From contig JALGZU010000279.1 of NCBI GenBank assembly GCA_025774735.1, positions 1-8,209 of the forward strand: a stretch of 8,209 bases of DNA, given 5' to 3'. The position numbers were made by a program, and so were the translations under genes. This DNA comes from a candidate division LCP-89 bacterium. GTDB lineage: Bacteria; Electryoneota; B3-LCP. Below are positions 1,232 to 7,015 of this stretch, in pieces. Under the pieces are notes generated by a model that had not been told where the DNA came from, made no database searches, and worked only from the letters and a program-made list of their open reading frames with translations. Position 1 is the first letter of the stretch. The number at the start of each line of letters is the position of its first letter.

Positions 1232-1257
1232 AATAGAGGTCAATAATAGAGGTCAAT
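1232..1257 (+). repeat. perfect 13-bp tandem duplication containing the ribosome binding site
   Basis: The unit AATAGAGGTCAAT occurs twice back to back (1232-1244 and 1245-1257) with no mismatch, just before the ATG at 1262. Each copy carries an AGAGGT Shine-Dalgarno-like core. The copy nearer the gene lies nine bases from the start codon and is the usable site; the other is a spare 13 bases upstream. Confidence 0.95.
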
Positions 1258-3358: not shown

Positions 3359-4918
3359 TTGAAAAAAACAATTCCAATTTTAGCTGTGTTTGTGGTCCTG
3401 ATTTTAACCATGAGCGCGGCCCAAGCCCAGGACAAGCCCAACTTCCTGGTGATCTGGGGTGATGATATTGGCTGGTCCAATATCAGCGCTTACAATCACG
3501 GAATGATGGGCTATCAAACCCCGAACATTGACCGCCTGGCTAATGAAGGCGCCATGTTCACACATTACTATGCGCAACAAAGTTGTACTGCGGGAAGAGC
3601 CGCATTCATTACCGGGCAGCATCCTTTCCGGACAGGCTTGCTGACAATCGGTATGCCGGGCTCAGAGCACGGTATTCCAGACTGGGCACCCACTCTGGCT
3701 GACCTTCTCAAGGAAGAAGGATACGCTACAGCACAATATGGCAAGAATCACCTGGGCGACCGTGATAAACATTTGCCAACAGCACACGGTTTCGACGAGT
3801 TCTTTGGTAATCTCTATCACTTGAACGCAGAAGAAGAACCTGAAGGCTATTATTACCCGAAGGATCCTAATTTCCGTAGGAATTTCGGACCTCGAGGTGT
3901 TCTTAAGAGCACCGCAGGAGGGAAAATCGAAGACACCGGTCCGATGACACGCAAACGTATGGAGACGGCAGATGAGGATTTCCTGAAGGCTGGTATGGAC
4001 TTCGTTGAGCGTTCAGTCAATTCCGGCAAACCATTCTTCATGTGGTTTAACACTACCAGAATGCATGTCTGGACCCGTTTGAAGGAAGAATCGATTGGAA
4101 CCACCGGCATTGGTCTCTATCCTGATGGCATGGTTGAGCATGACAGTCATGTTGGTATGCTCTTGGACCAATTGGACAGACTTGGCATCGCCGACAACAC
4201 AATCGTGATTTACAGCACCGATAATGGTGCTGAAACGGCGACTTGGCCGGATGGCGGCATCACTCCTTTCAAGGGTGAGAAAGGCACTACCTGGGAAGGT
4301 GGGTTCCGCGTTCCTTGTGTCGTACGGTGGCCCGGTACCATTGAAGCCGGCACGGTCGTTAATGAGATCATGGCTCACGAAGACTGGGTGCCGACGTTAA
4401 TGGCTGCTGCAGGCGAACCGAAGATCGCAGACAAGCTGAAGAAGGGTTACAAAGCCAACAGTAAGGAATGGAAGGTTCATCTGGATGGTTATAACTACAC
4501 ACCTTTCTTCAAAGGTAAAGCGAAAAAAGCTCCTCGTGAAGAAATTTTCTATTTCAGCCAGGGTGGTGATCTGGATGCGGTCCGTTGGAATGACTGGAAA
4601 GTCAGCTTCAATGTAATTGAAGGTAATATCGCCACAGGGATAAGAACCACGCCGAGCTGGCCTATCATTACCAATCTGAAAGCTGATCCGTTTGAAGTGA
4701 TGCATGAGCATTCCACGATGTATATCCGCTGGTATGGTGATAATATTTGGTTATTCGTTCCCATCCAGCAGAAAATCAAGGCCTTCCTGAGCACAATTGA
4801 AGGCTATCCGTTCCAAGCTGGAGCTAGTCTGAGTGCAGCCGGTATCAACTACCGCTCTATCAAGGCGCTCCAAATTCTAAAGCAGATGGAGCAGGGTGGA
4901 CTAATTCCTGGACAATAG
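3359..4918 (+). CDS. secreted type I arylsulfatase (formylglycine-dependent)
   Basis: A 519-residue sulfatase that would hydrolyse sulfate esters in the periplasm or at the cell surface. The signal peptide runs to AQA|Q (23/24). The alkaline-phosphatase-fold sulfatase domain then shows the metal-binding DD (35-36), the active-site motif CTAGR (76-80), where Cys76 must become formylglycine, GYATAQYGKNHLG (121-133) with Lys129 and His131, His236 in TRMHVW, the metal pair DNG (288-290), and Lys308 in GEKGTTWEGG. All the residues expected from family knowledge are present. The C-terminal part (DAVRWNDWKVSF, NLKADPFE, WLFVPIQQ, about 410-480) is the usual small domain of bacterial arylsulfatases. 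The motif is the CxAxR variant rather than CxPxR. The maturase (FGE or anaerobic sulfatase-maturating enzyme) is not in the window. The substrate cannot be told. It is the last gene of the operon, closed by the terminator at 4955. Confidence 0.95.
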   Translation: MKKTIPILAVFVVLILTMSAAQAQDKPNFLVIWGDDIGWSNISAYNHGMMGYQTPNIDRLANEGAMFTHYYAQQSCTAGRAAFITGQHPFRTGLLTIGMPGSEHGIPDWAPTLADLLKEEGYATAQYGKNHLGDRDKHLPTAHGFDEFFGNLYHLNAEEEPEGYYYPKDPNFRRNFGPRGVLKSTAGGKIEDTGPMTRKRMETADEDFLKAGMDFVERSVNSGKPFFMWFNTTRMHVWTRLKEESIGTTGIGLYPDGMVEHDSHVGMLLDQLDRLGIADNTIVIYSTDNGAETATWPDGGITPFKGEKGTTWEGGFRVPCVVRWPGTIEAGTVVNEIMAHEDWVPTLMAAAGEPKIADKLKKGYKANSKEWKVHLDGYNYTPFFKGKAKKAPREEIFYFSQGGDLDAVRWNDWKVSFNVIEGNIATGIRTTPSWPIITNLKADPFEVMHEHSTMYIRWYGDNIWLFVPIQQKIKAFLSTIEGYPFQAGASLSAAGINYRSIKALQILKQMEQGGLIPGQ

Positions 4919-4954
4919 TGGTTCGAAGAGTTTTGAGAGAATAGGGTGTGCTGG

Positions 4955-4990
4955 GGGCCGCGGGTCGGTATAACCCGCGGCCCTTTTATT
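4955..4990 (+). terminator. rho-independent terminator after the sulfatase
   Basis: An 11-bp perfect G+C-rich stem (4955-4965 with 4973-4983) closes a seven-base loop and is followed directly by TTTTATTATTT. It lies 37 bp after the stop codon and marks the end of the 739-4918 transcription unit. Confidence 0.93.
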
Positions 4991-5311: not shown

Positions 5312-6324
5312 ATGAAGAAGACAATCTACTTGATGGTAGTAATCAGCGTGTTGGTTGCTACTCTTTCTCCCGCCTATGCTCAGAATCCCGATATGGTGCT
5401 GTCACAATCTGAAAGGGACAGTATTCTGAAGGATTACAACAACATCTTCCCCATCTGGGGGCGGAAGGCAATCGAACCTGGGGGCGGAAGGCAATCGAAC
5501 GGGGATTCGATATCCCATATTCGTTCGGCATCGGTGTGAATACGATATACATGAACCAGGGGATTCTGATCAGCGACCTCATGCTGGGTGTCAATCAGGG
5601 TGATATGCAAACGATTGATTTTGTATCGTTCGGAGACAATACGAGCCAAGTAACCACAGCGAACCTGCGCTTAGATCTCTGGTTGTTTCCTTTCCTGAAT
5701 GTTTACGGAATGTACGGCAAGGGTTTTGCCAATACGACTGTCGAGTTAACAGAACCAGTATCGTTTGAATCCAGCGTTGACCAGTCAGGGACCTACTATG
5801 GATTTGGATTAACTGGAGCGGCAGGCATAAAAAAGAACTGGCTATCAGTGGATTTCAATATGTCCTGGACGGATCTGGAAAAACTTGAGGAGCCAGTTCG
5901 AGCCTCAATTCTGGGTTTGCGCTATGGCCGTACCTTTAACATAGGCGGCAGTAAAAGGTTGGCAGTTTGGGTAGGCGCCATGCATCAAAAGTTTAAAACT
6001 GAAACCGATGGCAGCATTTTGTTATCTGAAGCGATTCCGGTGGAAATAGTCGATCAGATTCAGAATTATCAGGACTCAGACTGGTACCAGGATCTTTCCA
6101 TACCACAGCAAGCTCTGGTTGACGAGTTTTTCAGCAGAATCGAGGAAGGAAATATCGGTGATACTGTGGTTAAGTATGGCATAGATAAAGCACCGGAAGA
6201 TCCCTGGAACCTTCTTGTTGGAGCGAATCTTGATCTGAATAAACATTGGGCAATCCGGGCTGAAGCCGGCCTTATTGGGAGGGTTTCGATCTTGGGCGGT
6301 TTGAATTTCAGGTTTAATTTATAG
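5312..6324 (+). pseudogene. outer-membrane beta-barrel gene frameshifted by a 23-bp tandem duplication
   Basis: The reading frame starting at ATG 5312 (binding site AAAAGGA eight bases upstream, signal peptide ending AYA|Q at 23/24) stops at 5537-5539 after 75 residues. A second frame is open from the duplicated unit to TAG at 6322-6324. Removing one copy of the repeat (5455-5500) joins them into a 329-residue protein, reading ...FPIWGRKAIE then RGFDIPYSFGIGVNTIYMNQG..., the expected N-terminal region of a recognisable family of outer-membrane proteins. The rest has barrel strands, a helical segment at about 170-210 (IVDQIQNYQDSDWYQDL), then WNLLVGANLDLNKHWAIRAEAGLIGR and a terminal FRFNL. 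In the second frame a GTG (5536) overlaps the TGA, so coupled restart is conceivable, but the product would lack a signal peptide. It may be a pseudogene, an 'off' phase variant, or an assembly error. Function unknown. Confidence 0.85.
5455..5500 (+). repeat. perfect 23-bp tandem duplication inside a barrel gene
   Basis: Two identical 23-bp units, 5455-5477 and 5478-5500, stand head to tail. The unit begins CTGGGGGCGG and ends AATCGAAC. Since 23 is not a multiple of three, the extra copy shifts the frame. The unit has no stop codon in any of its three forward frames, so only copy numbers of 1, 4, 7 and so on keep the gene in frame. Confidence 0.97.
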
Positions 6325-6375: not shown

Positions 6376-7015
6376 ATGAAGAAGCTCCTGATACTCGCTC
6401 TCATCACTACGATTCTCCTCCCCGGCATCGCCTATAGCCAGGCGGCTATATTAGTGCTGCTGTTTGGAGATAAGGTCGCCAGCGAGAACTTTTACTTCAG
6501 CCTGAAGATGGGAGGCAATTACTCGACCCTGTCCGGCATCGATGATGCCAGCTACAAGCTGGGACTGAGTTTCGGACTTGTGGCGACCATCAAGCTCAGC
6601 GACAAATGGTACATCGTGCCAGAGTTCTCGGCGATTTCGAATAAGGGTGCCGAAGACGTCCCGCTACTCCCCACCGGAGATCCAAACCTCGACGCCCTCT
6701 TGCAGCGAAAAATTCGGCGTGGGAGCTGGACCCCAACTCAGCATCCTGACCGGTGGCGTGGATCGATATGAGGCTGAGCTTCCGGATAGTAAAGACCTCA
6801 TCTATGAAAACGACATCAAGTCGGATCTGAACTCAATAGACGTCGCCGCGGTATTCGACGTCTATTACTCGCTGTCGGATGCGCGCAAGGGCAAAGGGCT
6901 GAACATTCACGCCAGGTATGAACTCGGTTTGACCGACATTGTCAAGGACAATCCGGGCGATGCAGTTATGAATTCGGCCTTCCAGATTGCCCTCGAGTTC
7001 CCGTTCATCGAGTAA
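6376..7015 (+). pseudogene. PorT-like outer-membrane beta-barrel gene, frameshifted with probable internal deletion
   Basis: The first part (6376-6771, 131 codons) has a signal peptide ending AYS|Q (21/22) and typical barrel text: FYFSLKMGGNYSTLSG, YKLGLSFGLVATIKLSDKWYIVPEFSAIS. After residue 110 (near 6705) the frame turns to Arg/Trp-rich nonsense. In the +1 frame, barrel sequence resumes at once: EKFGVGAGPQLSILTGG from 6707, then VAAVFDVYYSLSD, GLNIHARYELGLTDIV and FQIALEFPFIE, ending with TAA at 7013-7015. This is one broken gene. In PorT-like (OMP_b-brl_2) proteins a strand with a pattern like YxxIPxLxKY normally precedes the 'F.VGAGP' strand, and here it is missing. I infer a deletion of very roughly 15-25 codons at the GAAAAA run rather than a single-base slip. 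AAGAGGA (6361-6367) lies nine bases before the ATG. Function unknown. Confidence 0.8.

Follow-up and report, generated by a model that had tools for sequence, protein, structure and literature searches.

The window, by which we mean the whole 8,209-nt stretch of DNA analysed here (contig JALGZU010000279.1 of a candidate division LCP-89 bacterium, probably from a metagenome), carries a gene for a predicted outer-membrane barrel that is divided between two reading frames at a perfect 23-bp tandem duplication. A second barrel gene, matching the Pfam family OMP_b-brl_2 and likewise broken, follows it, and another perfect tandem duplication lies at 1232-1257 (Table 1). Upstream of the pair, an open sulfatase gene occupies 3359-4918 (PF00884, E 8.4e-52; best relatives at 82-83%), and a strong hairpin resembling a terminator comes after it at 4953-4985. 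The few sulfatase matches with a named source are scattered among several groups. Within the sulfatase gene, at 4238-4325, ARAGORN predicts a tRNA-Glu; since Rfam places a tRNA at 250-323 only, this call is probably false. The remaining open reading frames of the window appear open, with the full-length comparison to relatives covering the sulfatase only. A similar neighbourhood is found in a locus labelled Gemmatimonadetes (L003, 1988-8957), where relatives of five window genes, namely the DUF3826-like, omp1960, DUF4136, partner and barrel genes, lie within about 7 kb.

Table 1. Features of the broken barrel genes and of the two tandem duplications, in window coordinates.
Feature	Position	Strand	Remarks
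Further perfect duplication, two 13-bp units in tandem	1232-1257	+	Intergenic; preceded by the gene at 739-1215 and closely followed by the DUF4136 gene, which starts at 1262
N-terminal fragment of barrel gene	5312-5539	+	75 aa; putative signal-peptide-like start; family N-terminus by comparison with relatives
Repeat copy 1	5455-5477	+	Read in the N-terminal (signal-peptide) frame
Repeat copy 2	5478-5500	+	Motif carried in the C-terminal (barrel) frame
C-terminal part of barrel gene	5479-6324	+	Own frame, open 5413-6324; Pfam PF13505, 24.9 bits
Partner OMP_b-brl_2 gene, broken	6376-7015	+	Frame change at about 6701-6706; about 23 residues absent relative to P0122

Tandem Repeats Finder describes the array at 5455-5500 as 2.0 copies of period 23 with a 100% match, and a second repeat search agrees. 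The unit ends flush, with 0 nt of ambiguity to the left and to the right, and no microhomology is found at the ends of the duplication (0 nt shared on both sides). The 13-bp duplication is built the same way, with flush ends and no microhomology. Chance is ruled out as the origin of the 23-bp repeat by dinucleotide shuffles of the window (n=300): a perfect tandem array with a period of 10-80 is absent from 296 of them, and 4 have a single one. A special strand structure at the repeat was also considered and rejected, the local value being nothing unusual (z -0.90). The original prediction had reported a perfect duplication at this position, and the two repeat searches and the flush ends bear this out. 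Its further points that the unit contains no stop in any forward frame and that in-frame copy numbers would be 1, 4 and 7 are likewise correct, all three forward frames being open across both copies. The argument that perfect identity marks a recent event holds in part: identity is compatible with a recent origin, and also compatible with an artefact. The prediction listed neither the 13-bp duplication nor the break in the downstream neighbour.

The reading frame of the barrel gene switches between the copies, the signal-peptide frame running in copy 1 and the barrel frame in copy 2. From its own start, the gene follows the family N-terminus to the end of copy 1 and then continues out of frame until a TGA at 5537-5539, yielding only 75 residues and no barrel. 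The C-terminal frame has no start codon that would include a signal peptide; the first one in it is a GTG at 5536, overlapping the TGA that ends the N-terminal fragment. Both frames spell WGRKAIE across the repeat. A tblastn search with the relative P0002 (328 aa) recovers the gene as two pieces in two frames, 5333-5482 (56%) and 5479-6321 (62%), which meet in copy 2, and the protein search returned for this contig P0001, a 257-residue C-terminal fragment. A functional restart at GTG 5536 was rejected as the source of a working barrel: a protein begun there would be missing the signal peptide and some of strand 1, and inspection by eye shows no ribosome-binding site for this codon. A programmed ribosomal frameshift at a G-run, considered from sequence only, is rejected because the site lies in a single frame in relatives.

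The nature of the encoded protein was approached through its relatives. A structure model of P0002 that drew on 28 further sequences (mean pLDDT 88.2, pTM 0.77) has 12 strands, with the duplicated motif in a short helix that immediately precedes strand 1. The top Foldseek matches to this model are outer-membrane barrels, including autotransporter domains, FapF, omptins and others, at TM-scores of 0.48 or less among the best 50 matches listed. The gene product is described here as a predicted 12-strand outer-membrane beta barrel, whose run of long strands appears to match solved barrels. By sequence, the search of solved structures returned nothing meaningful (best E 0.034). The window fragment scores 24.9 bits against PF13505 (OMP_b-brl), whose curated cut-off is 28.7, and all five barrel relatives scanned fall below that cut-off as well; precomputed database annotation nonetheless gives PF13505 for 8 of the 120 listed homologues, P0001 included. 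None of the five scanned relatives matches an NCBIfam family.

Relatives of the barrel protein are numerous and distant. The homologue search found 151, and motif counts were taken from the 120 listed, among which the best identity to the window protein is 61%. The motif FPxxGxxxxxxG stands near the N-terminus in a single copy in 117 of these 120; the other three, P0117, P0120 and the window's own fragment P0001, lack it and are all N-terminally short. At the DNA level, the comparison set comprised 80 loci from GTDB genomes, some of them ending at contig ends. The site is covered in 78 (L046 and L048 start downstream of it), and 77 of the 78 carry a single copy in one frame, a count that includes L044 and L071, which align at the site with 2 and 3 extra residues. 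The remaining covering locus, L074, is broken at the site and elsewhere by several frame changes and has no repeat. Over the stretch of the gene present in each locus, 77 of the 80 loci keep one frame, the exceptions being L064, L068 and L074; no tandem repeat was found in these three broken genes (about 7950-9080; scanned over 7900-9100). Three frame-broken genes among 80 relatives indicate that loss is tolerated. Intact barrel genes are thus widespread, loss of the gene does occur, and none of the relatives covering the site has a repeat at it.

Two points of the original prediction turn on this comparison. The first, that an outer-membrane barrel gene has been put out of frame by the duplication, is upheld by the 12-strand model of a relative and by the single-copy, one-frame relatives. 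The second, a two-copy frame shared by all relatives, had been raised as an outcome that would speak against the prediction, and it did not occur: two copies are present in none of the 78 covering loci and in none of the 120 listed proteins. Scans for a closer genome matched 5 out of 395 in one phylum and 1 out of 40 in another, at a best identity of 49%; an earlier genome scan with a single-sequence query gave no match. A phage or viral origin was considered and rejected: the window has no DNA match in the phage collection, and no relative was confirmed in viral contigs.

The partner gene is broken in a different manner. Its Pfam OMP_b-brl_2 match is split across two open reading frames that are not in the same frame, and neither part reaches the cut-off. 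Compared with P0122, a protein from a 7004-bp JGI contig that is itself N-terminally short, the gene agrees at 98% (41/42 residues) in its first part and 93% (97/104) in its second, and the window has nothing to match the 23 residues that P0122 carries between these parts. Of the seven mismatches in the second part, two sit at the junction, and four of the other five are clustered within 7 residues. A partner match of any kind is present in 28 of the 80 GTDB loci, each in a single frame (partial in L074), against the split over two frames in the window.

The two genes keep company well beyond this contig. A relative of the partner lies less than 300 bp from the barrel gene in 21 of the 80 GTDB loci, in either order and divergently in L004 (L001-L004, L006, L010, L012, L014, L016, L019, L020, L022, L023, L026, L027, L035, L040, L041, L043, L045 and L068). 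The gaps were counted by hand, and the pair counts leave out L081-L089, which came from later searches. Loci in which the pair stands side by side are labelled as members of Gemmatimonadota, Ignavibacteria, Bacteroidota, Calditrichaceae and Aminicenantes. No named function was found for the gene pair. Given this adjacency in 21 of 80 loci, the barrel and its partner are a conserved pair, both members of which are broken in the window.

The locus is best read as a module of two genes in decay, one of which lost its function through an ordinary duplication, and we hold this reading with slightly better than even confidence. The 23 bp that encode a highly conserved motif near the N-terminus would have been copied once, head to tail. 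Ribosomes would keep the frame through copy 1, lose it in copy 2 and terminate at 5537-5539, so that the outcome would be an exported peptide of ~50 residues or nothing, and presumably no barrel. The remainder of the gene could be started only at GTG 5536 or later, and its product, having no signal peptide, could not reach the outer membrane. The partner gene would have been broken by a separate change, which suggests a lineage that can do without the pair and is losing it. Slippage that removed one copy might in principle revert the duplication, as it might at any short perfect repeat; this would be reversibility by chance and not an evolved switch. We infer in this account that the DNA is real, that the duplication is recent and that the events took the order given. 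Decay is favoured by breaks in both genes of the conserved pair in a window whose other open reading frames appear open. On the other side, its basis is two genes on a single contig, the closest listed homologue of the barrel protein stands at 61%, and three small structural scars in 8.2 kb are unusual and could mean a faulty assembly.

Misassembly, or an artefact of the library, is the main rival and a serious possibility, though the less probable of the two. Pieces with a 23-bp overlap might have been joined unmerged, or a mixture of strains badly joined, and either fault might explain the 23-bp duplication, the 13-bp duplication at 1232 and the gap at about 6705 together. Perfect arrays are rare in the loci of the 80 relatives: 1,099,550 nt hold 17 of period 10-80, of which 8 have a period of at least 13 and 3 of these exactly two copies. 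At the rates of the 8 and of the 3, the chance of at least two such arrays per 8.2 kb is 0.0017 and 0.0002, respectively. Because the window was chosen for its 23-bp array, the fair figures are those for at least one further array, 0.06 and 0.02, and they are a rough yardstick only, since the background consists of GTDB genomes of other groups and not of raw metagenome contigs. This imperfect comparison softens the case; even so, so many scars in so short a stretch speak for a fault in the contig, and the patchwork-like junction in the partner gene, with about 23 residues absent and four of the five substitutions beyond it gathered within 7 residues, points the same way. Gross chimerism is harder to sustain. 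Both halves of the barrel gene fit the same family about equally, at 56% and 62% to P0002, which argues against a gross chimera at the repeat, and the gene set is paralleled in L003, where the five relatives found together make gross chimerism unlikely. An array of only 46 bp, moreover, should be spanned by an ordinary read.

The original prediction had named a slippage-mediated ON/OFF switch beside a very fresh mutation and an assembly artefact; the latter two remain plausible. In such a switch, gain and loss of copies would toggle a surface barrel within the population. Some features suit this idea: the repeat is perfect, lies early in a gene for a surface protein, leaves all frames open and has a unit of 23 bp, which is not a multiple of three. 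Simple sequence repeat (SSR) contingency loci share the non-triplet repeat within the reading frame of a surface protein (PMC4235727). Those loci, however, are described there with many short units, whereas the window has two copies (2.0) of a long one, and a tract kept in relatives is found in none of the 78 covering loci or the 120 listed proteins, which are at most 61% identical. Low copy numbers form a "proto-mutable" class in Table 1 of that scheme, where the units shown are 10 nt or less (PMC4235727). The absence of terminal microhomology and the ordinary strand structure also speak against a switch. So does the broken partner gene, given that repair of the barrel gene alone would not restore the pair. 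A slippage-driven switch is therefore not supported by what the locus and its relatives contain, and we regard it as improbable.

Two-copy tandem duplications that silence genes are nevertheless known, in one case with loss of the duplication again. In Bordetella pertussis, a 30-bp tandem duplication inactivates BP3410, and its loss under selection restores function (PMC8546581). The window resembles this case at the level of sequence, with two 100% identical copies of a unit of similar length inside an inactivated reading frame. It differs in that the BP3410 unit is a multiple of three and its loss was observed (PMC8546581), whereas here the frame is shifted and a partner gene is broken too. 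In pneumococcal capsule genes, a tandem duplication within the reading frame turns a surface trait off (Waite 2001, 2003, as cited in PMC4022640); the title of the 2001 paper speaks of high-frequency phase variation, whereas the present case is known from the sequence of one contig. Microhomology-mediated tandem duplications in ssp1 of S. pombe are two-copy, potentially reversible and located in a coding region, as here, but they arise between microhomologies and are described in fungi (PMC13207564), whereas the ends of the 23-bp unit share 0 nt on either side.

Least probable of all, to the point of being nearly negligible, is the footprint of a mobile element, whose insertion would have produced a long target-site duplication and whose departure would have left both target copies in place. 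The flush, microhomology-free ends of the 23-bp and 13-bp duplications are explained equally well by a staggered cut with fill-in and by slippage. The copies abut directly, however, without any remnant in between, and the differing lengths of 13 and 23 bp would call for two elements.

Loss of function in a decaying pair thus remains the preferred reading, and as found its meaning is modest: it concerns one contig, in which either a gene is broken or the assembly is wrong. The locus also carries a lesson, that a perfect two-copy repeat alone is insufficient to call a phase-variable switch. A bolder proposal, which we consider a long shot, is that short, reversible tandem duplications and deletions silence a two-gene barrel module, found in several phyla, in a fraction of an uncultured population. 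If true, it would mean that surface variation by de novo duplication, which pathogens show, also occurs among uncultured environmental bacteria. With its larger member passing no Pfam cut-off and matching no NCBIfam family in the sequences scanned, the conserved barrel pair itself is the more useful lead.
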